Below, piece after piece: positions 19 through 63,174 of a DNA stretch of 64,000 bases. How positions within the stretch are numbered: the stretch's first letter is position 1; each line of letters starts with the position of its first letter. The stretch spans positions 2,666,001 through 2,730,000 of the forward strand of contig NZ_CP014263.1 of the NCBI RefSeq assembly GCF_001988955.1, written 5' to 3'. Origin of the DNA: Spirosoma montaniterrae. GTDB taxonomy: Bacteria > Bacteroidota > Bacteroidia > Cytophagales > Spirosomataceae. Position numbers and translations under genes: made by a program. The notes below the pieces were generated by a model. That model did not search any database. It saw nothing but the letters and a program-made list of their open reading frames with translations, and was not told the DNA's origin.

Positions 19-56
19 GCCCCTCCCTTCTGGGGAGGGGTTGGGGTGGGGTATCA
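19..56. repeat. Family A GC-rich palindromic element (partial, A1)
   Basis: A short hairpin with arms CCCCTCCC/GGGGAGGGG is followed by the GGGGTGGGG terminus shared by the copies at 8583, 22789 and 46764. The terminal TATCAC holds, on the minus strand, the TGA stop of the sigma-factor gene. The left part may continue before the window. Confidence 0.7.
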
Positions 57-662
57 CCGAATCGGCAGCAAATGCAGCATGAGCATTGCCCACAAAACGC
101 CCGTCAGCAGTTCGCGCAGGGTATGCAGTGCCCGGTTGATGTGGTTCGTGACCGACTGGCCGTTGATTGCCATAATCTGGGCAATTTCCTGATGGCTGAA
201 TTGGTGGTAAAAGGCCAGCGTCAGGGCTTCGCGCTGCCGTTGCGGAAGTTGCTCAATGCATTGGCGCAGACGCAGTTGCACCCGATCGGATGTTTCCTGC
301 TCGGTAATTAACAAGTCGATGGCTGGAATGCCTATATCCTCTGCGTGTTCGGCCAGCGCGTGCGGATGGAGCAGCGGGTTGGTCCTGGTCGTTAGCTGCT
401 CCGACAACTGATTACGCAGTACCCGGAATAGGTAAAACCGAACCGTACCTAAATCGCGGAGGGTGGCCCGCCGTTTCCAGACTTCCACGAAAACATCCTG
501 CACCGCATCCTGCACCAGCGCGTGGTCGGCGCAAAGTCGTTTACCATAAGCGAGCAACGCCCGGCTATGCTGGTAGTATAACTGCTCGAACGCGCTGCAA
601 TCGCCCGCCCGGAAGGCGTTCCAGAGCGATGTATCATCTGAAAACGAGAGATGGTTTGCCAT
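54..662 (-). CDS. ECF-type RNA polymerase sigma factor
   Basis: This 202-residue protein has the two-domain layout of an extracytoplasmic-function sigma-70 factor. Region 2 lies near residues 25-90, with the -10-recognition helix around DAVQDVFVEVWKRR. Region 4 lies near residues 140-190, with LPQRQREALTLAF and an HTH around SHQEIAQIMAINGQSVTNH. In Bacteroidota such factors usually work with a FecR anti-sigma factor and control a TonB receptor/SusD pair; the expected downstream partner would lie left of the window. The last 15 or so residues (GVLWAMLMLHLLPIR) are hydrophobic, which is unusual for a soluble sigma factor and could favour membrane association. The stop codon falls in a GC-rich palindrome. 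The family is certain; the regulon is unknown. Confidence 0.9.
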   Translation of the reverse strand: MANHLSFSDDTSLWNAFRAGDCSAFEQLYYQHSRALLAYGKRLCADHALVQDAVQDVFVEVWKRRATLRDLGTVRFYLFRVLRNQLSEQLTTRTNPLLHPHALAEHAEDIGIPAIDLLITEQETSDRVQLRLRQCIEQLPQRQREALTLAFYHQFSHQEIAQIMAINGQSVTNHINRALHTLRELLTGVLWAMLMLHLLPIR

Positions 663-753
663 GATGACGTAAAGGAAGAGCTTCGCGGTACAACCAGAAA
701 TAAAACGAATCGTAGACAGGTTTTGCTTTTTTCAAGCCAAATTTCTTTTGTTC

Positions 754-2388
754 TTACAACGACACCCCGAACTGCCACGGAATGAAATCGTCCTGACCAA
801 GTTGCTGGGCTTTGGTTTGTACCTCGCCACTCGCCAGCCGAATCACGTATTCCAGCAGCGCATCGCCCGATTGCCCGATGGTTTGTTCACCCCGAACGAT
901 GGGGCCGCAGTCGAAGTCGATAATGTCAGGCATTTTCTGCGCCAGAGCCGTGTTGGTTGCCACTTTCGCTACGGGGCAGATGGGGTTTCCAGTGGGCGTG
1001 CCTAAACCAGTCGTAAACAGAATGATGGTTGCCCCGGCGGCTGCTTTGCCAGTGGTAGCCAGCACGTCGTTGCCGGGCGTACAAACCAGATGCAGACCGG
1101 GCTGCGTAGCTATCTCCGTGTAATTCAGCACGTCGACAATAGGAGCCGTACCGCCTTTTTTGGCCGCCCCCGCCGACTTGATGGCGTCGGTAATCAGGCC
1201 GTCTTTGATATTGCCGACCGATGGATTCATGTCGAAACCCGCGCCCACGGCTTCGGCTTTGGCTGCGTACTCGCGCATGAGCGTTTCAAATTTGCGGGCT
1301 TTTTCTTCACTTACGCAACGGTCGATCAGGTTTTGCTCGACGCCACAGAGTTCGGGAAATTCGGCCAGCAGGGTAGTGCCGCCCAGGGCTACCAGCACAT
1401 CGGAGAGGTACCCCAGCGCGGGGTTGGCCGAAATGCCCGAAAACCCATCCGAACCACCACATTTCAGCCCAACTACCAGCTTCGAGAGCGGAGCGGGTTG
1501 GCGCGTGAGTTTGTTGGTTTCGGTCAGGGCCGCAAACGTTTGGCCGATGGCGTCTGAAAGCATGGCAAACTCGGTGCCGTATTGTTGCTGCTCAAAAAAC
1601 AGGATGGGCTTATCGAAAGCCGGATTACGCTTCTGAATTTCGGTCAGCAGGTCGTCGTACTGCGTTTTCTGACAACCGAGGCTCAGCACCGTCAGCCCAG
1701 CCACGTTTGGGTGGTTGGCATAAGCCGCAAACAGAGCCGCCAGCAGAGCCGAATCCTGATTTGTGCCGCCACAACCCATCTCATGCGTCAGAAACTTGAT
1801 ACCGTCCACGTTCGCAAAATACGGCTTCGGCGCGGGGGCCGGAGCGTCGGGCAGGTTCGCCATCGACGCGCCCGTTTCGTACTGCAATCGCCATGCCCGC
1901 ACCTGTTGCTGGTAGGTATCGGGTTGGGCATAGCCCAGTTCGCGCTCGAAGGCATCCTTCAGTTTCTGAATGTTCCGGTTTTCGCAGAACACTAACGGCA
2001 GCACGAGCCAGTAGTTGGCCGTACCTACGCGCCCATCGGAGCGGTGATAGCCCATGAACGAGCGGCCCTGCCAGCGCAACACGTCGGGGGGCAACCACGG
2101 TTGCGGTTTGCGCCGGTCGGTCGAGTAAGGTTCGGCCTCGTGGCGGAGATTGAAGGTCGTAATTTGTTCGCCCTGCCCGATAGGCTGCGTGGCTTTACCA
2201 ACCAACACGCCGTACATAGTCACCGGGTCGCCGGGGGTCAGATCGTGCAGCACAAATTTATGTTTAGCCGGAATGCTTCGTGGCAACGTAAAGCTATGAC
2301 CGTTGGAGACGATGGGCGTTCCGGCGGGCAAATCCTGCAAGGCGACCAGCACCGTATCGGTCGGTTCGAGTTTAAGATATGTTTTCAT
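754..2388 (-). CDS. Altronate dehydratase family protein (UxaA-like)
   Basis: This 544-residue protein has the UxaA layout: an N-terminal SAF-like domain (about residues 10-85) followed by the large catalytic domain. Recognisable signatures are HEMGCGGTNQDS, LSLGCQKTQ and GLKCGGSDGFSGISANPALG, whose cysteines are expected to take part in metal binding. Altronate dehydratase turns D-altronate into 2-keto-3-deoxygluconate in hexuronate breakdown; related members act on galactarate or other sugar acids, so the exact substrate is not settled. It lies downstream of a FucP-type permease on the same strand, which fits uptake plus catabolism of a sugar or sugar acid. A hairpin repeat occupies the gap between them. 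Confidence 0.88.
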   Translation of the reverse strand: MKTYLKLEPTDTVLVALQDLPAGTPIVSNGHSFTLPRSIPAKHKFVLHDLTPGDPVTMYGVLVGKATQPIGQGEQITTFNLRHEAEPYSTDRRKPQPWLPPDVLRWQGRSFMGYHRSDGRVGTANYWLVLPLVFCENRNIQKLKDAFERELGYAQPDTYQQQVRAWRLQYETGASMANLPDAPAPAPKPYFANVDGIKFLTHEMGCGGTNQDSALLAALFAAYANHPNVAGLTVLSLGCQKTQYDDLLTEIQKRNPAFDKPILFFEQQQYGTEFAMLSDAIGQTFAALTETNKLTRQPAPLSKLVVGLKCGGSDGFSGISANPALGYLSDVLVALGGTTLLAEFPELCGVEQNLIDRCVSEEKARKFETLMREYAAKAEAVGAGFDMNPSVGNIKDGLITDAIKSAGAAKKGGTAPIVDVLNYTEIATQPGLHLVCTPGNDVLATTGKAAAGATIILFTTGLGTPTGNPICPVAKVATNTALAQKMPDIIDFDCGPIVRGEQTIGQSGDALLEYVIRLASGEVQTKAQQLGQDDFIPWQFGVSL

Positions 2389-2410
2389 TCGTTATACAAG
2401 TAAGGGGTTA

Positions 2411-2510
2411 TTACACAGAGACTCACGGAGCAGACACGGAGCTACACCGAGGATAATCTTAAAAAAAGCTCTGTGTATCTATTTTTCTCTTTGTGCATCT
2501 CTGTGTAATA
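2411..2510. repeat. Family B palindrome (B1)
   Basis: The arms TTACACAGAG and CTCTGTGTAA bound about 100 bp of imperfect inverted repeat built from CACAGAGA/CACGGAG units. The same family recurs at 62021 and 63126. It lies between the permease and dehydratase genes on the same strand and could form a strong hairpin in the shared transcript. Confidence 0.75.
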
Positions 2511-2528
2511 GCTGCAATGCCCCAAACG

Positions 2529-3782: not shown

Positions 3783-3924
3783 GAGTTCGTAGCGAGTGAG
3801 TTTACGAATAACAAAGTAGTAGGACTATATAAAGATTTTGTTTTATCTGTTTACCCAATCATACCACTATATTGGCAATAATTATTCGTGATTACCGATT
3901 TTTTAGCCAATATGCCGACAAAAG

Positions 3925-3964
3925 GAAAAAAAAGCCGCAACTACCAGACAGGCAATTGCGGCTT
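3925..3964 (-). terminator. Rho-independent terminator for the AAA+ ATPase gene
   Basis: On the minus strand a perfect 9-bp stem (AAGCCGCAA / TTGCGGCTT, 15-nt loop) is followed by a run of eight T. It lies 38 bp past the stop codon of the gene that ends at 4002. Confidence 0.85.
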
Positions 3965-4001
3965 ACCGTCGCACTCTCCCCAACGAAGAGCGGTGAGGTT
4001 A

Positions 4002-5537: not shown

Positions 5538-5549
5538 TGTTTGTTAGTG

Positions 5550-5620: not shown

Positions 5621-5711
5621 TTGAACAGGCTTTCGGAAGAAATGGTTTTTAGACGCTGAAAATGGCTAATTTTACAGGCTATTAGTTGTGAGAGGGGTTG
5701 TTTTGCCAACT

Positions 5712-7511
5712 ATGAGATCACCTTTTTATTTCTTACTTATAAGTATCTTTCTGGCTTGTTTGTCGGCCTGCCGGGTGCAGAACAACCCGCCCGAACTGCT
5801 GAAAGTTTCGCCCAATACGGCTTACGTTGACCGCGAGGTAGCTCTGTCGGGTTATCAGTTTGGCAGCGAGCCGGTCGTAACGTTCGGTGAGGCTGCATCG
5901 CTCGTAACGGCCCGCATTCTTTCCAGCGATGATAACAACATCCGGGTCTCGGTGCCGTTTGCGCCCCCCGGCCCTACGCAGATTCGGGTTCGCAACGATC
6001 AGGGCGTTTCAGACCCGCTGCCGTTTACGGTGCAGCAGCCCGCCCCGGCCCTATCGGCAGTAACGCCTGCCAATGGTCTGCCAGGCACAACGGTCGTATT
6101 GACAGGTAATTACCTGAACCAACTGCTTTCGATAAAATTCAGCGATGCCGACGCCGTTATCCGCGACAGTACAGCCCAAAAACTAACGGTTGTTGTCCCG
6201 GAGAATCTACCGCGCGGCCCGCTGAGTATTGTAGTCGAAACAAAAGGCGGCCAACTGCTTATTCCATTTATCGTGGCCGATACGCCACAAATTACCAGTA
6301 TCAGCCCACGCTCTGTCCGACCCGGTGGCGAACTGCTTATTCAGGGCAAAAACCTGACCGATGGCATTGTTCGTATCAATGGTCTGCTTGTTTTTCCAAC
6401 CAATACGACCGTCAAAGACAATGAAATACGGGCAACGGTGCCAGCCAACGCCACATCGGGCGTAGTAACAGTCACTGTATTTGAGCGATTGATAGCCACT
6501 TCTGCCGATTCCGTGAAGATTGTTCAGCAACCGTCGGTAGCTAATTTAAGCCTGCGCGACGGTATTGCGGGCGATAAAATCATACTGAACGGCCTGAACC
6601 TGCGCGATGTAACGAGCGTGACGTTTGGCACTACAGCCGCTGCCTTCCGGGTATTGAGCGATTCACAGATCGAGACTACCGTACCAACGTTACCCGCACC
6701 TGTTCAATTGGCCGTTTCGGTCGGCAGCGTAGGCGGGACGTTTACGGCCACCGATCCGTTTTTCTATTACGTGGCTCCCGGTGCCATCACATTCAGTCCG
6801 ACGCGGGCACTGCGAAACGCGCAAATTATTATCACCGGCCAAAACCTGCACCGGATTACCGAGGTAAAAGTCAGTGGTTTTACAGAACCTATCATCGACC
6901 GAATAGAAGGGTCGCAACTGCGGGTCAGCGTACCGGCCAATGCACTGACGGGTGCCGTTACGGTTACGAACCGCGCGGGTTCGTCAACGGCGGCCCGGCA
7001 ATTGGTGGTGATTCAGCCACCAGTTGTTACCGAGATTATTCCGACAAAGGCGCGGCCCGGCGAACGCGTGGTGCTGAAAGGTAATTTTCTGCTGAACGCC
7101 CGTATTTTGTTTACTGGCACTGCCGTTGCCGCTGCCGATGGAGGTCGCACGGAAGACAATGAACGGTGGGTGCTGGTGCCTGCCGATGCGCAAAGTGGTG
7201 TTATTCGGCTAACCAACGAAGTGGGCGATGCCGTCACAACAGATGCGTTTACGGTACTCCGGCTGGCTGTAATTGCGGGGTTCGCTCCTCAAAGCGCGGT
7301 TGTTGGCGCCGACGTTACCATTACGGGCCAACACATGAGTTCGGTGAAAGAAGTGCGTTTTAACGGTGGAGCGTCTCTCCCGGCTCCGTTCCGGCTTTCG
7401 GGCAACGCGTTGATTGTCACCGTTCCTGGTTCGGCCACCACTGGTCAAATCTGCCTCACCACCGACGCAGGCGTGTCGTGTACAACAGGAAATTTTACAG
7501 TGGTCAGGTAG
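5712..7511 (+). CDS. IPT/TIG-repeat lipoprotein
   Basis: The ATG at 5712 gives a clean lipoprotein signal peptide ending in LSAC; an upstream GTG at 5688 is less likely. The mature part (about 580 residues) is a string of about seven IPT/TIG immunoglobulin-like repeats, each starting with a variant of SPxxxxPGxxVxLTGxNL (for example SPNTAYVDREVALSG, TPANGLPGTTVVLTG, SPRSVRPGGELLIQG, IPTKARPGERVVLKG). No catalytic domain is present. Such proteins are surface or periplasmic binding and adhesion modules. The TAG stop lies in the end of a family D palindrome that also supplies the stop of the convergent neighbour. Confidence 0.85.
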   Translation: MRSPFYFLLISIFLACLSACRVQNNPPELLKVSPNTAYVDREVALSGYQFGSEPVVTFGEAASLVTARILSSDDNNIRVSVPFAPPGPTQIRVRNDQGVSDPLPFTVQQPAPALSAVTPANGLPGTTVVLTGNYLNQLLSIKFSDADAVIRDSTAQKLTVVVPENLPRGPLSIVVETKGGQLLIPFIVADTPQITSISPRSVRPGGELLIQGKNLTDGIVRINGLLVFPTNTTVKDNEIRATVPANATSGVVTVTVFERLIATSADSVKIVQQPSVANLSLRDGIAGDKIILNGLNLRDVTSVTFGTTAAAFRVLSDSQIETTVPTLPAPVQLAVSVGSVGGTFTATDPFFYYVAPGAITFSPTRALRNAQIIITGQNLHRITEVKVSGFTEPIIDRIEGSQLRVSVPANALTGAVTVTNRAGSSTAARQLVVIQPPVVTEIIPTKARPGERVVLKGNFLLNARILFTGTAVAAADGGRTEDNERWVLVPADAQSGVIRLTNEVGDAVTTDAFTVLRLAVIAGFAPQSAVVGADVTITGQHMSSVKEVRFNGGASLPAPFRLSGNALIVTVPGSATTGQICLTTDAGVSCTTGNFTVVR

Positions 7512-7619
7512 AGACGCAAGATGTTGCGTCTCTGGCACCGGATGGCGTTTGCTGACGCATGCAAAGGCTGACGCATAAGGAGACGCAACATCTTGTCGCT
7601 CCGGCGCACCGGTCTCTAC
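7508..7619. repeat. Family D palindrome (D1) supplying two stop codons
   Basis: The element opens with GTAGAGACGCAAGATGTTGC and closes with GGTCTCTAC, with internal AGACGCAACATCTTG. Both genes converging on it use TAG from its ends: 7509-7511 on plus and 7616-7618 on minus. A second copy lies at 24686-24798. Confidence 0.8.
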
Positions 7620-8757: not shown

Positions 8758-10170
8758 ATGGAACAACGCCAATCCGATAATGTAAACGATACCCGCCCCG
8801 AACCGTCGGACAGCGAGCCGGTTGTTAATCAGCCAGTTAGTGAAGGCCCGGTCAGTAGCGGAAAAGCGGCACCCGAACAACGAAACAACCCACAGCATCG
8901 GCGTGACCGCGACAATCGGGAGAACCGTAACAATGGTACTAACCGCTCCAACGGCGGTCAGCCGCGCGAAGACCGGCCAAACGACCGGCGTGGCGAACCC
9001 AAAAACGGCGACGAATCCCGCCGACCCAGCCGGGAAGATCGCCCGAATCGCGATGAGCGCGAAAACCGGCAGCGCGACGACGACGGTAGCCCGCGCGGGA
9101 GCAATCGCAGCGAGGCACCGAGTCAGGAGAACACCGGGCGCGAAGATCGGTTGGTGATCGGCATTTCGCTGGGCGACTATAATGGCATTGGCCCTGAAGT
9201 CATCCTCAAAGCTCTGCAATACAACCGATTACAGAAAATTTGTACGCCCGTTATTTATGGCTCGATGCGGATTCTGAATCGATACCGCAACCTGCTGGAA
9301 ATGAAAGACTGGAACCTGAATGGGGCACAAACGATTGGTCAGATCAGCCATAAACTGACCAACGTTATCACCTGCTTCCCCGATCAAAATCAGGATATTC
9401 AGCCGGGGCAGGTAACGCCCGAAGCCGGGCAGGCCGCGCTGGCCTGTTTGCAACGTGCCGTCGACGACCTGAAAGACAACAAGTTAGATGCACTCGTCAC
9501 GGCTCCAATCAATAAATACAACATTCAGTCAGACGAGTTTAAGTTTCCGGGACATACTGAATTTCTGGCCGAACAATTTGGCGTACAGGACAATCTGATG
9601 TTCATGGTCAGCGAACGCCTGCGCGTGGGCGTTGTAACGGGACATATTCCGCTGGGTCGCGTTCGGCAGAACGTCACGCGCGAACGCATCTCGCAGAAGC
9701 TGACACTTATGATACGGTCGCTGAAGCAGGATTTTGGCATCGACAAACCCAAAATTGCCGTGCTGGGTTTGAACCCTCACGCGGGTGAAGAAGGGTTATT
9801 GGGCAACGAAGAGAACGACGTTATCAAGCCGCTGCTGGCCGAATGGCGCAACAAAGGGCATTTGGTATTTGGCCCCTACCCCGCCGATGGCTTCTTCGGT
9901 ACGCGCAGCTACGCTAAGTTCGATGCCGTGCTGGCGATGTACCACGATCAGGGGTTGATTCCGTTTAAAGCCATTGCCTTTGAAGAAGGCGTTAATTTCA
10001 CTGGCGGGATGTCTATAATACGTACCTCGCCCGACCACGGCACCGCCTACGACATTGCCGGGAAAAACCTCGCCGACGAAACGTCTATGCTGCAAGCCAT
10101 TTACACGGCTATCGACATTGCCCGCAAACGAAAAGAATTTTTAGAAACCGAAGCCAACGCACTGAAATGA
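8758..10170 (+). CDS. pdxA: 4-hydroxythreonine-4-phosphate dehydrogenase PdxA with long disordered N-terminal extension
   Basis: Residues 131-470 are a full-length PdxA, the NAD-dependent enzyme of the DXP-dependent pyridoxal phosphate pathway. Motifs include GISLGDYNGIGPEVI at the domain start, DALVTAPINKYNI, FPGHTEFLAEQFG, GLNPHAGEEGLLG and AMYHDQGLIPFKA, with metal-binding histidines in PGHTE, NPHAGE and YHDQG. Residues 1-130 are a low-complexity stretch rich in Arg, Asp, Glu, Asn and Gly (such as RRDRDNRENRNNG) that is not part of the usual roughly 330-residue enzyme. It resembles nucleic-acid-associated disordered tails. A TTG or GTG near 9149-9152 could start the bare domain, but the upstream frame is open for 130 codons. 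A tandem palindrome follows the stop directly. Confidence 0.92.
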   Translation: MEQRQSDNVNDTRPEPSDSEPVVNQPVSEGPVSSGKAAPEQRNNPQHRRDRDNRENRNNGTNRSNGGQPREDRPNDRRGEPKNGDESRRPSREDRPNRDERENRQRDDDGSPRGSNRSEAPSQENTGREDRLVIGISLGDYNGIGPEVILKALQYNRLQKICTPVIYGSMRILNRYRNLLEMKDWNLNGAQTIGQISHKLTNVITCFPDQNQDIQPGQVTPEAGQAALACLQRAVDDLKDNKLDALVTAPINKYNIQSDEFKFPGHTEFLAEQFGVQDNLMFMVSERLRVGVVTGHIPLGRVRQNVTRERISQKLTLMIRSLKQDFGIDKPKIAVLGLNPHAGEEGLLGNEENDVIKPLLAEWRNKGHLVFGPYPADGFFGTRSYAKFDAVLAMYHDQGLIPFKAIAFEEGVNFTGGMSIIRTSPDHGTAYDIAGKNLADETSMLQAIYTAIDIARKRKEFLETEANALK

Positions 10171-10277
10171 GTTGTAGAGTTGTAGGGTTATAGGGTTACA
10201 AAGTTGTCGGATGGCAGCGGAGTTAACTCTACAACTCTACAACTCTACAACTCTATAACTCTACAACTCTATAACCT
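10171..10277. repeat. Family H palindrome of GTTGTAGA/CTACAACT units
   Basis: The left side repeats GTTGTAGAGTTGTAGGG and the right side repeats ACTCTACA about six times, so the two halves can pair. It begins right after the pdxA stop and ends at the yicC start codon. Confidence 0.75.
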
Positions 10278-17703: not shown

Positions 17704-18864
17704 ATGACCTACCTCCAGCAGGATTTTAGCGTTCGGTTTTCGTATCGCGTCTTTTTTACCGAACAACTTTTTCAGATAGACAACCCAACGCTTGCCGATT
17801 TTTTTGCTCAACAGGCCAGTGAGACTACGTCTAAAAAAGCCCTGTTCGTACTTGACTCAGGGGTTGTCGAAGCATTTCCATCGCTGTTGGCTGACATACA
17901 AACCTATTTCGGTCAACAAGTTTTGGGCGTTGATCTAATACACGATATGCTGGTGCTGCCCGGTGGCGAAGCGGCTAAAAACGACCCAACGCTGGTTGAG
18001 CAGATTGTTGATGCCGTTGACCGGTATGGTATCGACCGGCACTCGTTTGTGGTAGCTGTGGGCGGAGGTTCGATTCTGGATCTGGTGGGCTACGCAGCCG
18101 CCATTTCGCACCGGGGCATTCGGCACATACGCATTCCGACAACGGTTCTGTCGCAGAATGATTCGGGCGTGGGCGTTAAAAATGGCGTTAATTATCGCGG
18201 AAAGAAAAACTTTCTTGGCACGTTTGCGCCCCCCGTGGCCGTATTCAACGACAGCCTTTTTCTGACCACGCTCGATGACCGCGACTGGCGGGCGGGCATC
18301 TCGGAAGCCATTAAAGTGGCCCTTATTAAAGACGCTCAATTTTTTGCCTGGGTAGAAGCCAATGCGGAAGCCCTCGCCCACCGCGACGCAGCCGCCATGC
18401 AGTACCTGATTCACCGCTGCGCCGACATGCATCTCCAGCACATTGCTGCGGGCGATCCGTTTGAGCAGGGGTCATCGCGCCCGCTCGATTTTGGCCACTG
18501 GAGCGCGCACAAACTCGAACAACTGACTGATTTTGAGATCCGTCATGGCGAAGCTGTTGCTACCGGCATTGCGCTCGACACGCTCTACTCGAACCAACTC
18601 GGCTGGCTTTCCGACACAGATACGAACCGGGTGCTAACCACGCTCCGAACCCTCGGCTTTGTGCTCTACCACCCCCAACTCGATGCCGACAACAGCGCGA
18701 CCATTCTGCGCGGCCTGTCTGAATTTCGCGAACATCTCGGCGGACAGTTAACCATTATGCTCCTACAGGCTATTGGTCGGGGCGTTGAAGTCCACGAAAT
18801 GGATGAAAATCGTATTCGGCAGGTCATTGCCGTGCTGAAAGAACAGGAATTGGTGAACATGTAA
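17704..18864 (+). CDS. eboD: EboD, 3-dehydroquinate-synthase-like sugar-phosphate cyclase
   Basis: The ATG at 17704 gives 386 residues. Dehydroquinate-synthase-family motifs are clear: GGEAAKNDP, the NAD-binding VVAVGGGSILDLVGYAA, IPTTVLSQNDSGVGVKNGVN, and metal-ligand regions LDFGHWSAHKLE and RHGEAVATGIALDT. Sugar-phosphate cyclases of this type convert a phosphorylated or free seven-carbon sugar to a cyclitol. The position directly before eboE identifies it as the EboD member of the ebo cluster rather than the shikimate-pathway AroB. The TAA stop is the second to fourth base of a palindrome. Confidence 0.85.
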   Translation: MTYLQQDFSVRFSYRVFFTEQLFQIDNPTLADFFAQQASETTSKKALFVLDSGVVEAFPSLLADIQTYFGQQVLGVDLIHDMLVLPGGEAAKNDPTLVEQIVDAVDRYGIDRHSFVVAVGGGSILDLVGYAAAISHRGIRHIRIPTTVLSQNDSGVGVKNGVNYRGKKNFLGTFAPPVAVFNDSLFLTTLDDRDWRAGISEAIKVALIKDAQFFAWVEANAEALAHRDAAAMQYLIHRCADMHLQHIAAGDPFEQGSSRPLDFGHWSAHKLEQLTDFEIRHGEAVATGIALDTLYSNQLGWLSDTDTNRVLTTLRTLGFVLYHPQLDADNSATILRGLSEFREHLGGQLTIMLLQAIGRGVEVHEMDENRIRQVIAVLKEQELVNM

Positions 18865-18919
18865 CGCGGGTGGGAACCCGCAGTAGTAAACTCACAATGC
18901 GGGTTCCCACCCGCGTTAC
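18861..18919. repeat. Family E palindrome (E1) supplying the eboD stop
   Basis: Perfect 22-bp arms at 18861-18882 and 18898-18919 (GTAACGCGGGTGGGAACCCG and complement). The TAA of the left arm is the eboD stop codon, and the right arm ends 4 bp before the eboE ATG. The related copy is at 27640. Confidence 0.88.
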
Positions 18920-18923: not shown

Positions 18924-20153
18924 ATGAAAACGCCTTTAGGCCATCTCGGCTATTGTACCAATATTCACCCCGGCGAGTCGTGGGCCGATCATTTCGCAGC
19001 TTTGCAACAGGCCGTGCCGGAACTGAAACAGCGACTATCGCCCGATGCACCGCTGGGGCTGGGGCTGCGACTCGCCAACGAAGCCAGTGAGGAGTTAGAA
19101 AAGCCCGAAAACTTAGTGGCGTTTCAGCAATGGCTGGCCGATACGGGCTGTTATATCTTCACAATGAACGGATTCCCGTTCGGTAGCTTTCACCATACGG
19201 TTGTAAAAGATCAGGTGCATAGCCCCGACTGGACCACTGAAGCGCGGGTTGACTACACCAAACGGCTATTCAGAATTTTGTCGGTGTTATTGCCTGTCGA
19301 TGAACTGGGTAATGCCATACCGGGTGGCCTTTCGACTTCGCCCCTCTCCTACCGCCATTGGTTCGAGTGGGAGCAGCCAGCCGCCCGCGACTATATTTTT
19401 TCGCAAACCACCCAGAACGTTCTCGAAGTGGTGGTAGAACTTATCCGGCTTCGGCAACAGACCGACCGGCTTATGCACCTCGACCTCGAACCAGAACCCG
19501 ACGGTATCATCGAAACCGCCGACGAGTTCATAGCCTGGTTTACTGACTACCTGCTGCCGATGGGTATCGAGCAACTGACCGACCAGTTTGGCCTGACCGA
19601 CGAAGCCGCTGAAGCTGCCATTTGCGAGCACGTTCGGCTTTGTTACGATGTTTGCCACTTCGCCGTGGGCTACGAACGCCCCGCCGAGGTGCTCGACAAG
19701 CTGAAAAACTACGGGCTTCGGGTCGGCAAAATTCAGATTAGCGCGGCTTTGAAAGCTGCTTTCCCGGTCGATGCCGACGGTCGTGAAGCGGTACGACAGG
19801 CGTTTGAACGGTTCAACGAACCAACATACCTGCATCAGGTAGTGGCCCGCACACATGATGGCTCGTTGTTACGTTTCACCGATCTGCCGAACGCGCTGGC
19901 AGCAGTAGACGACACTCATGCAGAGTGGCGGGCGCATTTCCACGTTCCGATTTTTGTACCAGATTATGGCGTCTTACAGTCTACGCAGGACGACATTCGG
20001 GAGGTGCTGCGGCTACAGGCCGAACGGGCATTTACCAATCAGATGGAAGTAGAAACCTACACCTGGGACGTACTGCCAGAAGGGTTGAAACTCGATTTAA
20101 TAGACTCAATCGAGCGGGAAATGAAGTGGGTACTTAATTTTAGTGATGAGTGA
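18924..20153 (+). CDS. eboE: Metabolite traffic protein EboE
   Basis: The ATG at 18924 gives 409 residues beginning MKTPLGHLGYCTNIHPGESW, the characteristic EboE start. The fold is a xylose-isomerase-like TIM barrel; LHLDLEPEPDGI, LCYDVCHFAVGYE and VETYTWDVLP carry likely metal-binding Glu, Asp and His residues. In cyanobacteria the ebo cluster is linked to moving a scytonemin precursor to the periplasm; its chemistry in Bacteroidota is unknown. The gene is flanked by different palindromes, the downstream one containing its TGA stop. Confidence 0.9.
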   Translation: MKTPLGHLGYCTNIHPGESWADHFAALQQAVPELKQRLSPDAPLGLGLRLANEASEELEKPENLVAFQQWLADTGCYIFTMNGFPFGSFHHTVVKDQVHSPDWTTEARVDYTKRLFRILSVLLPVDELGNAIPGGLSTSPLSYRHWFEWEQPAARDYIFSQTTQNVLEVVVELIRLRQQTDRLMHLDLEPEPDGIIETADEFIAWFTDYLLPMGIEQLTDQFGLTDEAAEAAICEHVRLCYDVCHFAVGYERPAEVLDKLKNYGLRVGKIQISAALKAAFPVDADGREAVRQAFERFNEPTYLHQVVARTHDGSLLRFTDLPNALAAVDDTHAEWRAHFHVPIFVPDYGVLQSTQDDIREVLRLQAERAFTNQMEVETYTWDVLPEGLKLDLIDSIEREMKWVLNFSDE

Positions 20154-20206
20154 TGAGTTTTGGGAGCGTCAGCAAACTCATCACTCATCGTTCATCACTC
20201 ATCACT
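20142..20206. repeat. Family C palindrome (C2) overlapping the eboE stop
   Basis: AGTGATGAGTGATGAGTTT (20142-20160) pairs with AAACTCATCACTCATC at 20174 onward, which continues with a second GTTCATCACTCATCACT. The eboE stop TGA (20151-20153) and its last three codons are inside the left arm. Confidence 0.85.
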
Positions 20207-20222
20207 ACCTACCATCACTTTT

Positions 20223-22293: not shown

Positions 22294-22788
22294 TTGCAGT
22301 ATCTCCGTAACGTCCGTTTCACCTCTTTTCTGGTCATTGGTTTCTTTGTCAGTCTTGCTGTTTTAGGGCAGGAAAACCTAAAACACCGGCTTTTGCACGG
22401 CTACCTTCTAAGTACCGATGCACCTGTTGTCAAAGGGAAACCAACCCTGTTCGTCTTTGAATTAGCCGATACGTTCGGCGAGGTTTTCAAAGCAGCGTCC
22501 TCACAAAGCAAGCAGCCCGATGCTATCAATTTCGAGAAAGAGATGGTGATTGGTGTTGCCTTACCAGCCACCAACAAGCCGCCTAAACTATCGATCAGCC
22601 GGGTGTTTGTGCAGGACTCAACGCTCACTGTGCGGTATATCAGGATGACGGATAGTGCTGTCGTTAAATCGCCACTCGCTACCCCAATACAACCCACACT
22701 GCTCATCGCCATTCCCAAACAAACGGTTTTGAAAACCAGATTAATTGAGAACGGCAAGGTTATGCAAACCTTGAAAAAAGACATTTAA
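22294..22788 (+). CDS. Hypothetical secreted or membrane-anchored protein
   Basis: A 164-residue frame with an N-terminal hydrophobic segment (FTSFLVIGFFVSLAVLGQ) that reads as a signal peptide, then a small soluble domain. The only in-frame start before the signal is TTG at 22294. No family recognised. Base composition fits its neighbours. The TAA stop touches a family A palindrome. Confidence 0.5.
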   Translation: MQYLRNVRFTSFLVIGFFVSLAVLGQENLKHRLLHGYLLSTDAPVVKGKPTLFVFELADTFGEVFKAASSQSKQPDAINFEKEMVIGVALPATNKPPKLSISRVFVQDSTLTVRYIRMTDSAVVKSPLATPIQPTLLIAIPKQTVLKTRLIENGKVMQTLKKDI

Positions 22789-22879
22789 CCCCACCCCCGT
22801 CCCCTCCCCGTTAGGGAGGGGCAAGCCTGAAAAGCTTCGCGCTCCTCCCTAACGGGGAGGGGACGGGGGTGGGGTGTCA
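22789..22879. repeat. Family A palindrome (A3) at a convergent junction
   Basis: CCCCACCCCCGTCCCCTCCC pairs with GGGAGGGGACGGGGGTGGGG around an inner CCGTTAGGGA/TCCCTAACGG hairpin. It fills the gap between two convergent genes. The TAA of the left gene abuts it and the TGA of the right gene (22877-22879) is in its TGTCAC end. It may also act as a two-way terminator. Confidence 0.85.
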
Positions 22880-24685: not shown

Positions 24686-24798
24686 GTAGAGACGCAAGAT
24701 TTTGCGTCTCCTCTGCCGGATGGTTTTTATAAAATGGCTGGCGCACGAGAAGACGTAACGGCTGGCGCACGAGGAGACGCAAAGGGTTGCGTCTCTAC
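24686..24798. repeat. Family D palindrome (D2) supplying the monooxygenase stop
   Basis: The ends GTAGAGACGCAAGATTTTGC and GGTTGCGTCTCTAC mirror the copy at 7508. Inside, GGCTGGCGCACGAG occurs twice as a direct repeat. The right end provides the TAG stop (24795-24797) of the minus-strand monooxygenase gene. Confidence 0.82.
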
Positions 24799-27639: not shown

Positions 27640-27727
27640 GTAACGCGGGTGGAAACCCGCATGGTGTAGTAAGGCGGGTAAAAACCCGCACTCTGAGTTT
27701 ATCACTGCGGGTTTCCACCCGCCTTAC
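27640..27727. repeat. Family E palindrome (E2) supplying the yeiH stop
   Basis: Three related arms (GTAACGCGGGTGGAAACCCG, GTAAGGCGGGTAAAAACCCG, and the complement GCGGGTTTCCACCCGCCTTA) at 27640, 27668 and 27706. The TAA stop of the upstream minus-strand gene (27724-27726) is in the right arm, and the left arm begins 4 bp before the sorA start codon. Confidence 0.85.
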
Positions 27728-45159: not shown

Positions 45160-46788
45160 TTACTTTAACACCGTCGTGCTTTCAGCTACGGCGCGGATTT
45201 TCTCTTTCGAGAAAAAGACTGGAAAATAACCGTTTTCGGCCCAGAGCGGAAACAGGTCGGCGTAATGGGGGCCATCGGGATTGCCCGACTGGCCGGGGCT
45301 GTTGATACCGAGCGTTTTATCCCAGTCTTCGGTATCGACCAGAATACGAAACGATGCCCCATGGGTCTGGTTGAGGTCGTTGGCCGTGGCATTCACGGTT
45401 TCGCCGTAGCCACCCCGCGCCACCGGGCCGAGGTTGATGCGCTGCTGCATAGCCTTATCGACCAGCTTGCTGAGCGGGTGCGTGATGGTGATGTGTTTGT
45501 TTTTACGCTGCCCGTAGCTCCAGTCGTCCATGTCATTGCCGAGCCGTTCAGTTAGTTCCGCTACGGCCCGGTCGAGGCAGGTTAGCAATAGCTCGTCGCG
45601 GAGGGTGGTGCCGCCCTGTGGCGTTACTAACCAGTCGATTACCCGTTTGCTGGGTAGGCTTCGGAGGTAAGGCCGGGCGTTTTGCGGCACGTTGGTTTCA
45701 TACAGTGCCTTCTTCAACTGCCCTTCCCAGGCGACGTAAATAGCTGCCGCCACCGATTCGGGTTTAAGCTGAAAATTCCACCGGCGCAGGTAGGTCAACG
45801 CCTGTTCCGTGCGGCTGTTGGGCGACGACAGATTTTGCAGCAACGGCACAAGCGTTCGCGCCGGAATGCTCAGATAGTCGGTCTGCAAGGCCATGAAATC
45901 GACTAAATTTTTGCGTGTCCCATCCGACAATACTTCTTCGATGCGGTGCGCCCGGCTTGGCCCGGCCCAGGTCCAGCCGATGGCGTTGCGGTTTGGAAAA
46001 TTACTGGGCGTGAGGTTGTTATTGGCTGTTACGACATAGCCTTCGGGCGGATTCAGTTTGCTGGGCAGTTGCTGGATGGGCAGGTAGCCGCCCCACTCGA
46101 ACCGCCCATCGCCCGGCACCGGCACCAAGCCCGAAAAATTCTTTCGGATAGGTGAAATGCCTACTGCCTGCCAGCCGATGGTGCCGGTTTTATCCGCCCA
46201 CACCATGTTCTCGCCCGGAATCCGGCTGAACGAACATGCCTGCCGGAACTCGGCCCAGTTGCGGGCCTGATTCATCCGCAAACTGGCTAAATACGGCGCA
46301 CAGCCCGTTTCGAGCCAGCCCGCCCGCACGGCGTAAGCTTTGTGATTCGGGGCGTCTTCAAACACCACCGGCCCGTGGTGGGTGTATTTCAACGTTGCCC
46401 GAACGGGTTGCCCGCCCTTTACCACAATCGTCTCGGCCAGTACGCGCATCGGCACCCAACGGCCTTTATACCGGTATTGATTCGGGTTTTTCGGGTTGGT
46501 ATCATATACCAGCAGGTCTTCATTGTCGGTCTCGAAAATCGTCAGCCCCCACGCGCCGTAGTCGTTGTGCCCGATAGAAATACCCGGCAGCGTCGGTTCA
46601 CCCGCGCCGACCACGTTCCAGCCGGGCGCGTTCAAATGCACCCAATACCGCAGCGAGGGCGTACTCTGCGCCCGGTGCGGGTCGTTTGCCAGCATGGGGT
46701 AGCCGCTGCTGGTTTTCCGACTCGACAGCACCCAGTTGTTCGAGCCTTCGTCTTCTGCGTTCGCCCTCACCCCCGGCCCCTCTCCCAA
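45160..46788 (-). CDS. Penicillin acylase family protein, beta-chain part (frame-separated from the alpha part)
   Basis: A 542-codon frame corresponding to the beta chain of an Ntn-hydrolase acylase. The nucleophilic serine is the S of EGSNNWVLS, which in the mature enzyme becomes the N-terminus after self-cleavage. The rest aligns with the family: NDPHRAQSTPSLRYWVHLN, LPGISIGHNDYGAWGLT, and the late HGASFRILVDTEDW. The only start is a TTG inside the repeat (46788), and there is no signal peptide, so on its own it would stay in the cytoplasm. The frame differs by one from that of the alpha part upstream. It is either inactivated by the repeat or needs a frameshift. Confidence 0.75.
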   Translation of the reverse strand: MGEGPGVRANAEDEGSNNWVLSSRKTSSGYPMLANDPHRAQSTPSLRYWVHLNAPGWNVVGAGEPTLPGISIGHNDYGAWGLTIFETDNEDLLVYDTNPKNPNQYRYKGRWVPMRVLAETIVVKGGQPVRATLKYTHHGPVVFEDAPNHKAYAVRAGWLETGCAPYLASLRMNQARNWAEFRQACSFSRIPGENMVWADKTGTIGWQAVGISPIRKNFSGLVPVPGDGRFEWGGYLPIQQLPSKLNPPEGYVVTANNNLTPSNFPNRNAIGWTWAGPSRAHRIEEVLSDGTRKNLVDFMALQTDYLSIPARTLVPLLQNLSSPNSRTEQALTYLRRWNFQLKPESVAAAIYVAWEGQLKKALYETNVPQNARPYLRSLPSKRVIDWLVTPQGGTTLRDELLLTCLDRAVAELTERLGNDMDDWSYGQRKNKHITITHPLSKLVDKAMQQRINLGPVARGGYGETVNATANDLNQTHGASFRILVDTEDWDKTLGINSPGQSGNPDGPHYADLFPLWAENGYFPVFFSKEKIRAVAESTTVLK

Positions 46789-46861
46789 AACGGGAGAGGG
46801 TGCAGTGTACCCGGATGGCTCTCCCCTCTCCCCGTTTTGGGAGAGGGGCTGGGGGTGAGGG
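46764..46861. repeat. Family A palindrome splitting the acylase gene (A6)
   Basis: CCCTCACCCCCGGCCCCTCT and AGAGGGGCTGGGGGTGAGGG are the outer arms, with inner CCCAAAACGGGAGAGGG and CTCTCCCCGTTTTGGGA hairpins. The insert lies between codons for TPNRPG and NAEDEGSNNW and shifts the frame. Confidence 0.85.
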
Positions 46862-47606
46862 AAGGGCCGGGGCGGTTCGGCGTTCCCATGAAGGCCGCTT
46901 CGTCTTCATCGGCTTTGGTGGCCTGGCCCTGAAATTTGAGCGGCAACCGGAATGCTTCGTACAGGTCAAGAATGGGTTGAAACAGTTGGTCGCCGTTGAC
47001 GTGCAGTGTCAGATCGGGTTCGGTGGGCTTCGTGGTCGGATGAAACCAGCTTAGCTCGCGGAGTTTTTCGGGACCGATGAGTTTCACCAACCGCCCGTAG
47101 TTCAGTTCGTCGCGGACATTGCCGAGCAAACCCTGATGGCGGCTGATAACGACGTCGGGCGTCCAGAAACCCGGCTTCATGTCGAGCACCCGAAACTCGA
47201 ACGGTAGGTTTTCGGGTGTTTTCAGAATCTCGGCGATGTAGGCGTTGATGCCCTCCACAAACGCCCGCACAATCTGCGGCCCACGTGGGTGATAGTGCAG
47301 CAATTCTTTGTTCAGGTTGCCACGGAAGCGAAACAGCCGCGTCCCCACGTCGCGCTTCACTTCCTGCGGACCGAGCAGTTCGGCAACGGTGCCGGTGGCC
47401 TGCCTGCGCCAGATTTCCAACTGAAACAGCCGGTCCTGCGCGGCCTGATAGCCCTGCGCCCAGAACAAATCGTGTTCGTTTTTGGCGTAGATATGATTCA
47501 CCCCCCACTGGTCGCGAATGACCTCAACGGGCTGTTGCAGCCGCTGGGCGGTAATGGAGTGAAAAATTAAAAGTGAAAAGTTAAGAGTAAGGGCGAGTTG
47601 GCGCAT
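46767..47606 (-). CDS. Penicillin acylase family protein, alpha-chain part (ends in the inserted palindrome)
   Basis: A 279-codon frame with a signal peptide (ALTLNFSLLIFHSITA) followed by an acylase alpha chain: VEVIRDQWGVNHIYAKNEHD, the conserved LFWAQGYQAAQDRLFQLE and WRRQATGTVAELLGP. From about residue 247 it runs into the family A palindrome and ends 33 residues later at a TGA within it. Members of this family hydrolyse acyl-amide bonds of penicillins or acyl-homoserine lactones in the periplasm. It starts one base after the upstream serine-hydrolase stop. Whether any active enzyme is made is doubtful. Confidence 0.75.
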   Translation of the reverse strand: MRQLALTLNFSLLIFHSITAQRLQQPVEVIRDQWGVNHIYAKNEHDLFWAQGYQAAQDRLFQLEIWRRQATGTVAELLGPQEVKRDVGTRLFRFRGNLNKELLHYHPRGPQIVRAFVEGINAYIAEILKTPENLPFEFRVLDMKPGFWTPDVVISRHQGLLGNVRDELNYGRLVKLIGPEKLRELSWFHPTTKPTEPDLTLHVNGDQLFQPILDLYEAFRLPLKFQGQATKADEDEAAFMGTPNRPGPSLTPSPSPKTGRGESHPGTLHPLPFWERGRG

Positions 47607-56710: not shown

Positions 56711-56765
56711 TTTATCGGTATCTTCAATCAATTTTGTGAACCCAATCATCCAAATTATAACCCAC

Positions 56766-57098: not shown

Positions 57099-57099
57099 G

Positions 57100-58611: not shown

Positions 58612-58618
58612 CTCGATT

Positions 58619-59416: not shown

Positions 59417-59441
59417 ACACCCGAATATATACGTTTGATAT

Positions 59442-60392: not shown

Positions 60393-60485
60393 TATATCTT
60401 AGATTGATTTTATTAACACGCTCTGCAATTATAGACAATGTAACAGCAATAGCATAATAGATGTAAAAACTTTCTTCTACAATCA

Positions 60486-60493
60486 TAAATTTG
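60486..60493 (+). promoter_or_regulatory. Candidate -7 element for the intact amidohydrolase (TAAATTTG)
   Basis: It matches TAnnTTTG 36 bp before the ATG at 60530. It lies at the edge of the AT-rich island, so the island may have left or supplied the promoter of the intact gene. Confidence 0.4.
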
Positions 60494-60529
60494 TCTCATC
60501 ACAACACGACCCAATCACATACCGAACCA

Positions 60530-61999
60530 ATGCGAATACTATTCCTTGCCCTCACGCTACTCCTGCCCGGGCTGACTCTCGCACAAAAGCCTAAAAAAAC
60601 CGCTACCCCCGCGCCCGACAAAGACAAACAAACGGCCATTGCCAGCCTCGACAGCCGCTTTTCGGACTACGCAGGCATCTCAAAACAAATCTGGGATTTC
60701 GCCGAACTCGGCTACATGGAAGAAAAAAGTTCGGCCCTGTTGCAGGAGCAGCTTCGTAAAGAAGGTTTCACTGTGTCGGCGGGCGTGGCGGGCATTCCAA
60801 CGGCGTTTGTCGCTACTTACGGCACCGGAAAACCCGTGATCGGCATTCTGGGCGAGTACGACGCGCTGCCCGGCCTTGCCACCGAAGCCAAACCCGATTT
60901 CACACCCATTGCCGGGCAGAAAGGCGGTCATGGATGCGGGCATAACCTGTTCGGCACGGCGTCGATGGCGGCTGCGGTCGAGGTTAAAAACTGGCTGAAA
61001 GCGTCGGGGAGGCCCGGCACGGTCAAGATTTACGGCTGTCCGGCTGAAGAGGGCGGCTCCGGCAAAGTGTACATGGTGCGCGAAGGACTCTTTAACGACA
61101 CCGACGTAGTGCTGCACTGGCACCCCGGTTCGCAGAATGGTGCCGACGCCGGTACGTCGCTGGCAAACAAGAACGCCAAATTCCGGTTTCGGGGTATTGC
61201 CGCCCACGCAGCAGCCTCGCCCGAACGGGGTCGGTCGGCTCTGGATGGCGTAGAAGCCATGAACTACATGGTGAACATGATGCGCGAACACGTCCCGTCG
61301 GACACGCGCATTCACTACGTGATTACGAAAGGGGGCGACGCACCAAATGTGGTGCCGGCCTTTGCGGAGGTATATTATTACGCCCGTCACAAAGACCGCG
61401 AGGTGCTGCAAAGCGTCTGGAAGCGCATCGAAAATGCGGCTGAGGGCGCGGCCAAAGGCACTGGCACAAAGGTAGAATGGGAAGTGCTGGGCGGGGTGTA
61501 CAACATTCTGCCCAACGTGTCGCTGGCCGAGGTCATGCACCAGAATCTGAAACTTGTTGGGGGTGTGACCTACACCGCCGACGAAACCGCCTTTGCCGAA
61601 AAAATCAGCCAGACTTTTGGCGAGGGGCAGAAAGTACCCATTACCAACGCGGCCCTTGTAAAAGACTTCCGCGATCAGAGCGATAGCCCGACGAGTGGCG
61701 GCTCGACCGACGTGGGCGACGTAAGCTGGGCCGTTCCAACGGTGGGTTTGCAGACCGCTACGTGGGTGCCGGGTTCATCGGCGCATAGCTGGCAATCGAC
61801 GGCGGCAAGCGGCATGAGCATCGGGCAGAAAGGCATGATGGTGGCGGCTAAGACGCTGACATGCACCGCGCTCGACCTCTACAAAAACCCCGCGCTCATC
61901 GAAAAAGCCCGCGCCGAATGGCTGCAAAAACGAGGGGCCGATTTCAAGTACGAAGCCCTGCTCGGCGACCGCAAACCGGCATTGGATTACCGGAAATAA
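60530..61999 (+). CDS. M20-family amidohydrolase (aminoacylase/peptidase-like), secreted
   Basis: From the ATG at 60530 this is 489 residues with a signal peptide (ALTLLLPGLTLAQ). M20D motifs are clear: the metal-binding GGHGCGHNLFG near residue 140, CPAEEGGSGKVYM with the catalytic Glu pair, and the ligand His in VVLHWHPGSQNGAD. The dimerisation domain is about 220-340. Family members remove acyl groups from amino acids or cleave peptides; AbgB-like p-aminobenzoyl-glutamate hydrolases have the same length. Its 5' part is duplicated at 56766. A family B palindrome follows. Confidence 0.9.
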   Translation: MRILFLALTLLLPGLTLAQKPKKTATPAPDKDKQTAIASLDSRFSDYAGISKQIWDFAELGYMEEKSSALLQEQLRKEGFTVSAGVAGIPTAFVATYGTGKPVIGILGEYDALPGLATEAKPDFTPIAGQKGGHGCGHNLFGTASMAAAVEVKNWLKASGRPGTVKIYGCPAEEGGSGKVYMVREGLFNDTDVVLHWHPGSQNGADAGTSLANKNAKFRFRGIAAHAAASPERGRSALDGVEAMNYMVNMMREHVPSDTRIHYVITKGGDAPNVVPAFAEVYYYARHKDREVLQSVWKRIENAAEGAAKGTGTKVEWEVLGGVYNILPNVSLAEVMHQNLKLVGGVTYTADETAFAEKISQTFGEGQKVPITNAALVKDFRDQSDSPTSGGSTDVGDVSWAVPTVGLQTATWVPGSSAHSWQSTAASGMSIGQKGMMVAAKTLTCTALDLYKNPALIEKARAEWLQKRGADFKYEALLGDRKPALDYRK

Positions 62000-62020
62000 G
62001 AGGGGTTATGACATAAAAGG

Positions 62021-62132
62021 GTTATGACACAGAGACACGCAGAGATAGCACTGAGATACACTGAGACTATTGTGAGCTAATAAAAACTCTGTGTATCTCC
62101 GTATTTCCTCCGAGTATCTCTGTGTCACAACC
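62021..62132. repeat. Family B palindrome (B2)
   Basis: GTTATGACACAGAGACACGC on the left pairs with CTCTGTGTCACAACC on the right; the arms contain several CACAGAGA/ACTGAGATAC units. It lies between the amidohydrolase and the PfkB gene, and its right end holds a GTG that extends the PfkB frame artificially. Confidence 0.78.
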
Positions 62133-62145
62133 TTTCAACAACCTT

Positions 62146-63174
62146 ATGCTCAAAATCACAACGCTTTTCAGTCGCATCGCCAACCTCCGCGTGGCCGTTA
62201 TCGGCGATTTCGCGCTGGATTTATACGCAACCGTAGAGACACAAACCGGCGAACGGTCGATAGAAACCGGGCAGACAGTGTTCTGGGGTCGTCGGCCACG
62301 GGCGTCGCTGGGGGGCGCGGGCAATGTGGTGCAGAATCTCGCTACGCTGGGCGTTGGGGACATACGGGTTGCTGGCTGCGTAGGCGATGATTTGTTCGGG
62401 CGCGAAATGCGGCAGTTGTTCGGGCGGGCGGGCGTCGACACCACCCATTTGCACACGCCCGAAGGCTGGGATACCTGCGTGTATGCCAAGCCATTCGTGA
62501 ACGGGCAGGAAGCCAACCGCCTGGACTTCGGCACCCATAATGCGCTGGCAGACGCTGATTTTCAGAAGCTTTTAGATGCGCTGGCAAGCAACCTGCCCAA
62601 TCTTGACCTGCTGATTATCAACCAGCAATTTCCCAACCCACTGCTTACGGCATCGCGCACCGAGCAGCTAAACAGCCTGCTCGAACGCTTTCCAACCGTT
62701 TGCTGCGTGGCCGACATGCGCGACATGGGCCACCACATCAGCCACGCTACCCTGAAAGTGAACACCGCCGAACTGGCCCGGCTGCTACACACCGACCTGC
62801 CCGCGCAACCCGACTACGACTGGTGCGTTCGAGCCGGTCAACAACTCAGCCAACACCGTAACGGGCCGGTTGTGCTAACGCGGGGCGAAGCGGGCATTTT
62901 GTACGTGAACGGTGAGCAGACCGAATCGGTAGAAGCCGTGCCACTGCGGGCCGAAATTGATACCGTTGGCGCGGGCGATACGGTCGTGGCCGCGTTCGGG
63001 GCCTGCGTGGGGACTGGTGCCTCGCCCGCCGATGCCATCGACGTGGCGAATCTGGCCGCTGCCGTTACGGTGCAAAAACTCCGGCAAACCGGCACGGCGA
63101 GTCTGGAGGAGATTTTAGCTTTACTTTATGACACAGAGATGCACGGAGGAGACACAGAGATACACAGAGGTTAA
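62146..63174 (+). CDS. PfkB-family carbohydrate kinase (RfaE/HldE-like)
   Basis: The ATG at 62146 gives 342 residues. Ribokinase-fold motifs: VAVIGDFALDLYATVE near the start, ASLGGAGNVVQNLATLG (about 55-71) as the sugar-binding loop, and the ATP/anion-hole motif DTVGAGDTVVAAFGA near residue 280. The GGAGNV pattern resembles heptose-7-phosphate kinases, but the nucleotidyltransferase half of HldE is absent. It phosphorylates an unidentified sugar. The last 15 or so residues (YDTEMHGGDTEIHRG) are translated palindrome. The adjacent AGE epimerase suggests amino-sugar or disaccharide use. Confidence 0.85.
   Translation: MLKITTLFSRIANLRVAVIGDFALDLYATVETQTGERSIETGQTVFWGRRPRASLGGAGNVVQNLATLGVGDIRVAGCVGDDLFGREMRQLFGRAGVDTTHLHTPEGWDTCVYAKPFVNGQEANRLDFGTHNALADADFQKLLDALASNLPNLDLLIINQQFPNPLLTASRTEQLNSLLERFPTVCCVADMRDMGHHISHATLKVNTAELARLLHTDLPAQPDYDWCVRAGQQLSQHRNGPVVLTRGEAGILYVNGEQTESVEAVPLRAEIDTVGAGDTVVAAFGACVGTGASPADAIDVANLAAAVTVQKLRQTGTASLEEILALLYDTEMHGGDTEIHRG

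Follow-up and report, generated by a model that had tools for sequence, protein, structure and literature searches.

Hairpins of many families abut gene ends in Spirosoma montaniterrae, and the best-resolved cases suggest that the gene end came first

Introduction

When a stop codon lies inside a palindrome, did the palindrome bring the stop or find it there? The question is raised by a 64,000-nucleotide (nt) window of Spirosoma montaniterrae (C1:2666001-2730000 of a 5.80-Mb single-contig genome), in which hairpin-forming elements of several families stand at the ends of genes. An initial annotation of this window had proposed that such elements supply the stop codons of flanking genes, either by inserting preferentially at gene ends, or because only insertions that quickly provide a stop survive, or as combined stop and terminator cassettes. 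From the window, 1.6 Mb more of the same genome (1.66 Mb in total, 29% of the genome), and related genomes, the sequence record shows many hairpin families abutting gene ends and suggests that ends predate hairpins in the best-resolved cases, with hairpins appearing, disappearing, and copying the end; only some hairpins would create a new stop.

Specifically, we consider it rather probable that the short spacers behind genes are packed with palindrome families, that stops enter palindromes by three routes, and that the hairpins are kept as useful or harmless. By the first route, the TAG or TAA in the head of a repetitive extragenic palindrome (REP) would coincide with the gene's own stop, through insertion at a short GTAG or GTAA word that both share or through collapse onto that word. 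By the second, a palindrome arm would copy the adjacent gene end with its stop by template switching between arms, the gene end thereby becoming part of the hairpin. By the third, presumably a minority, a reading frame would enter the element and gain a new tail and a new stop. Hairpins would be retained since an RNA hairpin right after a stop, acting in end formation, protection, or termination, may be either useful or harmless.

Placement of hairpins at gene ends

Genes were called with a purpose-made scorer rather than a standard caller, and inverted repeats with a purpose-made finder, for which gapped arms can lead to merged or missed elements. In the first 400 kb, 125 inverted repeats were detected, compared to 1 after letters were permuted inside 100-bp blocks. 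Merging yielded 352 elements in the 1.66 Mb, 322 of them intergenic and 30 within called genes. These included GTAG-head and GTAA-head hairpins, the families CCCCACCCC, ACACAGAG, ACGGAT, and CAGGATTAGCC, and long palindromes with arms of tandem words (TTGAATGA, AGTGAAAA, GTGATGA, and GTTGTAGA), with 123 of the 352 classed as “other”.

The heads form a subset placed non-randomly with respect to stops. Among the 48 GTAGAGACG and GTAA[CG]GCGG heads located ≤100 bp from a same-strand stop (17 heads >100 bp away and 8 inside genes were left out), the head's own TAG or TAA was the stop in 19, with 0.49 expected. Near gene ends, 19 heads were thus in stop phase vs 2 in read-through, both of the latter entered in the GTA GAG ACG frame, 45 and 96 nt ahead of the end of the open reading frame (ORF). 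A single repeat pair held both stops of convergent genes in two pairs outside the window and, as read by eye, at 7508-7618 within it. Separately, GTAGAGACG hairpins were seen deep within called ORFs at about C1:1273820, C1:3481923, and C1:3742322, the same-strand ones sharing one phase; these may be in-frame insertions or merged gene calls.

For elements of all kinds, overlap was far more frequent at gene 3′ flanks (109/372) than at 5′ flanks (23/272), and in unidirectional gene pairs it reached 45/197 at the 3′ side vs 7/197 at the 5′ side (Fisher P ~9e-9). We evaluated this against a relocation null, in which each element was moved uniformly within the spacer that holds it, intrusion into genes being allowed up to a set tolerance. 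Elements overlapping beyond the tolerance were dropped, so that between 245 and 312 of the 322 intergenic ones entered the test. At tolerances of 3, 6, 10, 15, 20, and 30 nt, the 3′ overlaps observed were 35, 63, 73, 80, 88, and 99, for 36, 62, 79, 91, 106, and 126 expected (62.2 at 6 nt and 90.9 at 15 nt before rounding), while 5′ overlap fell far under expectation (6 vs 32.4 at 6 nt; 10 of 247 vs 52.3 at 15 nt). Spacer length minus the element had a median of 38 nt, and element-free spacers of the same orientation one of 45 nt. In general, elements avoid gene starts but not gene ends, and the spacers that hold them are short.

Total overlap is thus in line with random placement in short spacers from which the start side is forbidden, so that no general insertion preference is needed. 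The claim that hairpins of all families favor stops falls for the total: the initial annotation had itself named an overlap no higher than random placement as the refuting result, and relocation gave this at all six tolerances. Stop enrichment as a general property was therefore rejected and holds for the heads only.

Gene ends compared with relatives

If elements had supplied these stops, protein ends could be expected to differ from those of orthologues. We compared protein lengths with the related genomes G004 and G005, keeping 134 of 516 matches (identity ≥60%, coverage ≥60%, unaligned tail ≤25), namely 84 controls, 26 with a nearby element, 19 (from 11 genes) whose stop falls within an element, and 5 with an element >20 nt away. 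Length was unchanged in 23 of the 26 comparisons with an element 0–20 nt past the stop, compared to half of the 84 element-free controls. Within one residue, genes ending in an element matched the controls (74% vs 68%).

Eight of the 19 genes whose stop is a head were then compared individually, and seven had usable orthologue data. Five of these seven end where their relatives end, or consistently with it: the end of B1 44970 is unchanged relative to G004, those of B4 244754 and B4 245752 are likewise unchanged, and 31 of 33 relatives align with B2 363634 up to its last or penultimate residue, consistent with an unchanged end as far as alignment ends and open-frame lengths tell; the fifth is uvrC, described below. 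The eboD product is 1–2 residues shorter than its relatives, and the ABC transporter gene B3 249634 is several residues shorter, in poor alignments to seven relative loci, one of them truncated at a contig end and another read out of frame. The yeiH-like gene was discarded as an orthologue test, since its 6 matched relatives (7 of 36 genomes including its own) stood at 45–47% identity and were of no use. Overall, the statement that elements supply the stops looks wrong in the best-resolved cases (these five of seven and the convergent junction described below), while the tail of pfkB and shifts of 1–2 residues in 12 of 19 comparisons speak for it.

At uvrC, a head and the stop stand side by side in some genomes and coincide in another. 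Its product ends at the same residue in 15 of 20 relatives and one residue later in 5; about 7 of the 20 (including G010, G027, and G005) carry, by eye, a GTAA-head hairpin 0–3 nt past the stop, and in the genome studied here the GTAA head and the stop are merged.

A candidate case of the second route is the junction between a LysM gene and a convergent DUF481 gene. The LysM protein end is homologous in 22/22 genomes, and the DUF481 protein end (YE[KR][KQ] and stop) is the same in the 20/20 genomes where it was found, the other 2 of the 22 giving no such end within 400 bp. A palindrome with a score of at least 13 occupies this junction in 14 of the 20 genomes, mostly with different sequences by eye (those of G008 and G015 are alike); 6/20 are without a long palindrome, three of these having a short hairpin. 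The arm covers 3–12 nt of the DUF481 gene end in 8 of the 14, and in G013 it includes the last three DUF481 codons and the stop, with an inverted copy behind the LysM gene. Given the conserved protein end, copying most likely went from gene to arm rather than from arm to gene. Three genomes (G001, G014, and G021) have Q in place of K as the final DUF481 residue, like the end of the LysM protein opposite.

Changes within palindromes could be followed between G004 and G005, which are ~93% identical and colinear across most of the middle 200 kb; beyond it synteny broke, and only ~36 and 78 kb aligned. G004 has 52 hairpins there, of which 31 were compared and 21, with length changes, were set aside. 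Across 653 pairs in the 31 shared hairpins, 567 were unchanged, 45 changed on one side, and 41 were double changes, vs 6.2 double changes expected from divergence; 38 of the 41 still pair. Loop orientation was scored in 25 hairpins found by a looser rule: 2 were flipped by the strict rule, 11 direct, and 12 unclear, with two of the unclear loops appearing flipped by eye in the stem alignments, and 10 more hairpins had no counterpart. Stem double changes and flipped loops are described as marks of template switching in the portion of PMC8794818 consulted, and both occur here in close relatives, although the stem changes alone are inseparable from selection for pairing. Two complete palindromes in G005 lie, by eye, 2–4 nt behind a stop codon that is the same in G004. 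Two insertions also resemble 4-bp target duplications by eye, too few for a claim.

Inward stops and tandem-arm families

Families differed in how often they overlapped a stop by ≥3 nt. Overlap was found at 18/30 flanks for TTGAATGA, 7/26 for AGTGAAAA, and 9/18 for GTGATGA, all three carrying 0.15–0.23 inward stops per triplet, and was rare for ACACAGAG (1/18) and CCCC (3/35). In the 374 arms of elements touching no stop, we counted 515 inward stops vs 195 on the reverse complement. As a universal rule this asymmetry was rejected: counted per family it was 11 vs 3 (P 0.057), and in 45 single elements 12 vs 11. Being absent from single elements, it is a property of some families only (TTGAATGA, AGTGAAAA, GTGATGA, and GTTGTAGA).

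A bolder version of the second route would make the spacers behind Spirosoma genes rewritten palindromes, in which template switching between arms copies the last codons and the stop and can alter the end of the convergent partner, and in which the tandem-arm class, dense in inward stops with few stops on the other strand, would be tolerable at any gene end. We offer this as a tentative suggestion, under which the Q ends of the DUF481 protein in G001, G014, and G021 would be altered partner ends.

Evidence against the preferred account and alternative explanations

Several observations weigh against the account in which gene ends come first. Read-through phases are rarer than entry free of selection predicts, which favors a survival filter, and stop overlap tends to rise with inward stop density (14 families, Spearman 0.53, P 0.051). 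When the stop lies inside an element, length was exactly the same in 7 of 19 comparisons, a lower share than the half found for the controls; of the other 12 proteins, 6 had gained and 6 had lost 1–2 residues relative to the orthologue. Also, one insertion between G004 and G005 alters the last residues from ASLL to ASLHY before the stop. In the relocation null, families are pooled and each spacer is accepted as observed. As for template switching, stems were picked as paired in G004, 21/52 hairpins were set aside, selection for pairing alone gives double changes, and 11/25 loops were direct with 12/25 unclear.

The first alternative is that stop codons are an insertion target, i.e., that a REP transposase puts its element 3′ of a pre-existing GTAG or GTAA, for which gene ends in G plus TAG or TAA are sites. 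IS200/IS605 elements insert at their tetranucleotide. The spike exactly at −4 (the 19/48 heads above, with 0.49 expected) and the unchanged protein ends would both follow, and where the genome studied here has a GTAG repeat, the repeat-free junction of G005 shows G-TAA and G-TAG at the two stops. A Y1 transposase-like gene with GTAA-family repeats on either side (see below) points the same way. However, two repeat pairs hold both convergent stops, which a single insertion at one site does not explain; in G004, the relative of B1 44970 has A rather than G ahead of its TAA stop; several uvrC relatives carry the repeat after the stop, not on it; and the GTAGAGACG family is absent from the flanks of all three Y1 genes within the roughly 1.3 kb inspected around each. 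We regard insertion targeting as a possible explanation, short of a probable one.

Under the second alternative, a survival filter, elements would hit last codons randomly and only those giving a quick stop would persist, the stop being truly new. It is consistent with the 19 stop-phase vs 2 read-through heads, with frequent stop overlap in the stop-dense tandem-arm families next to 1/18 for ACACAGAG, and with element-coded tails in pfkB, eboE, and the AGTGAAAA case B1|20265. For pfkB, alignments end at residue 326–336 of 342 in 28 of 29 matching relatives, the 29th match being partial; these are alignment ends and not the relatives' own last residues. Such a filter predicts truncation or extension, yet ends are unchanged or consistent with unchanged in five of the seven head-stop genes; total overlap is not raised; and CAACAGC, an exception to the family trend, overlaps stops in 6/8 flanks although it carries just 0.063 inward stops per triplet. 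As a general explanation, this is a rather unlikely one, although the element-coded tails and the differences in overlap between families suggest that a survival filter probably acts in part. The survival of quick stops, as initially proposed, has some support from the phase counts and the family trend.

Selected cassettes, in which a hairpin fused to a stop would function as one unit in termination or in the control of translation and be kept by selection, are improbable: a long palindrome does occupy the LysM/DUF481 junction in 14/20 genomes although its sequence is replaced, and ribosomes reportedly stall at E. coli REPs that lie ≤15 nt from a stop (an earlier study cited in the consulted part of PMC12306157), but 6/20 genomes lack a long palindrome at this site, a short hairpin being present in three of the six, and packing already explains placement. 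Overall, the initial interpretation is supported in part.

Relation to known repeat systems

The window family GTAGAGACGC forms a hairpin with an unpaired GTAG head and, as expected for REPs and for REP doublets forming hairpins (REPINs), occurs in high copy number and in inverted pairs, with 162 forward and 152 reverse matches in its own genome at ≤2 mismatches, some representing both strands of one hairpin. The exact GTAGAGACGC pattern is present in 29/36 genus genomes; the exact GTAGAGACGCAA hairpin pattern occurs 99 times forward and 90 times reverse here and ≤46 times in each of the 35 other genus genomes searched. The tandem-arm, CCCC, and ACACAGAG families do not qualify as REPs or REPINs, their arms being long and built of repeated words or runs of C, with no constant GTAG-type head in the copies inspected.

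Three Y1 transposase matches were found in the genome (L081, L082, and L083), and no GTAGAGACGC/GTAGAGACG repeat adjoined them in the roughly 1.3 kb inspected around each. L083 (G000:C1:3915248-3915523) is a 208-aa ORF with a PF01797 match and GTAACGCGGGT inverted pairs on both flanks, the arrangement of a REP-associated tyrosine transposase (RAYT), while the GTAACGCGGGT head is GTAA and lies outside the GTAG/GTGG heads of the RAYT-associated REP class. Since its copies flank the Y1 transposase-like ORF on both sides, GTAACGCGGGT acts as a REP-like system with a GTAA head, and the window repeats at 18861 and 27640 probably derive from L083. The L081 and L082 transposases adjoin other palindromes (words GTCGCGTTAGCGAC and GTCCCTACGGGAC). 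REPs and REPINs with RAYTs were reportedly treated by Bertels and Rainey in 2011.

The initial annotation had taken the pattern to be undescribed, which fails for GTAG repeats: their termini often give flanking ORFs their TAG stop (Di Nocera et al. 2013, PMC3733652). The repeats studied here resemble those GTAG-tagged REPs in having a GTAG-headed hairpin, often in inverted pairs, near 3′ ends, with the head TAG as an ORF stop. In the parts of that paper compared, the lists assign GTAG repeats to other phyla and place CGTC repeats in Bacteroidetes; the present case differs in its Bacteroidetes host and adds a phase count and an orthologue test, which those parts do not include. The flanking of a Y1 transposase-like gene by inverted GTAACGCGGGT pairs on both sides recalls REPs and REPINs with RAYTs (Nunvar et al. 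2010, PMC2817692, in the part consulted), although the Table 1 rows compared there have GTAG or GTGG heads and not GTAA. E. coli REPs ≤15 nt from stops likewise place a hairpin beside a stop, with a possible translation effect (PMC12306157, consulted portion), unlike the many unrelated families here, which often overlap the stop. Template-switch hairpins, as far as the sections of PMC8794818 and PMC8604942 compared describe them, share the several paired stem changes, flipped loops, and arm homogenization, whereas here they would be bacterial intergenic palindromes reaching into gene ends, with the cause deduced from the pattern. A literature search, which covered a small share of the matching literature and left subscription papers mostly outside, returned no Spirosoma study of such repeats.

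The GTAG part is therefore known, and the extensions are the junction record, the GTAA family with a transposase-like gene, and the stop-dense tandem arms. If the account is right, repeats that give genes new ends are set apart from repeats that adopt old ends, two classes often merged, and stop sharing of the GTAG type reaches a genus of Bacteroidetes as well as a GTAA-headed family that has a transposase-like gene of its own. The LysM/DUF481 junction, where palindrome turnover can be traced over 20 genomes with both protein ends fixed, provides a test bed for the origin of bacterial 3′ hairpins.

Elements of the window

The automatic finder placed 19 elements in the window. Gene names follow the initial annotation, except for the Pfam-confirmed IPT/TIG protein, dehydrogenase, and pfkB. 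Nine stops had been named as lying inside or at the end of hairpins: six are in a palindrome head or arm and one is in a loop, while two lie 1 bp outside an arm (54-56 and 22877-22879). The palindromes and most of the named stops are thus real, and it is the generality of the pattern that was overstated.

Head-type stops are found in four repeats. In the GTAG-head pair between convergent genes at 7508..7618, the IPT/TIG protein stops at the TAG of the left GTAGAGACG head (7509-7511) and the dehydrogenase at the CTA of the degenerate right head GTAGAGACC (7616-7618), the latter head read by eye as the automatic arm ends at 7595. A second GTAG-head pair (24686..24798) provides, with the TAG of its right GTAGAGACG head, the monooxygenase stop 24795-24797. 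TAA stops belonging to GTAACGCGG and GTAAGGCGG heads are those of eboD (18862-18864), in the GTAACGCGGGT repeat pair 18861..18919, and of yeiH (27724-27726), in the right head of the GTAACGCGGGT and GTAAGGCGGGT repeats at 27640..27727.

Frames enter the element in three cases. The eboE frame runs 13 nt into the GTGATGA tandem-arm palindrome 20141..20207 and stops at 20151-20153 inside the arm 20141-20156, its last residues being therefore element-coded. The pfkB frame reads the whole left arm (63126-63169) of the ACACAGAG palindrome 63126..63225 and stops in the loop at 63172-63174, so that approximately its last 16 residues are element-coded. The minus-strand gene 46767-47606 runs through 95 nt of the CCCTCACCCC palindrome 46764..46861, a read-through absent from the initial list.

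Elsewhere, contact is marginal. The stop of the extracytoplasmic function (ECF) sigma factor gene (54..56, minus strand) lies 1 bp past the end of a CCCCACCCC-type palindrome that continues beyond the window edge. The CCCCACCCC palindrome between convergent genes at 22788..22875 overlaps the stop 22786-22788 by 1 nt and leaves that of the SSS symporter (22877-22879) 1 nt outside, and the GTTGTAGA tandem-arm palindrome 10169..10275 overlaps by 2 nt the stop 10168-10170 of an ORF ending at 10170; the stops 22786-22788 and 10168-10170, with their 1–2 nt of arm overlap, had also been missed initially. By eye, the loops of unrelated families (window elements 7508, 10169, and 46764, among others) have words in common, e.g., CCGGATGG and GCGTCAGC.

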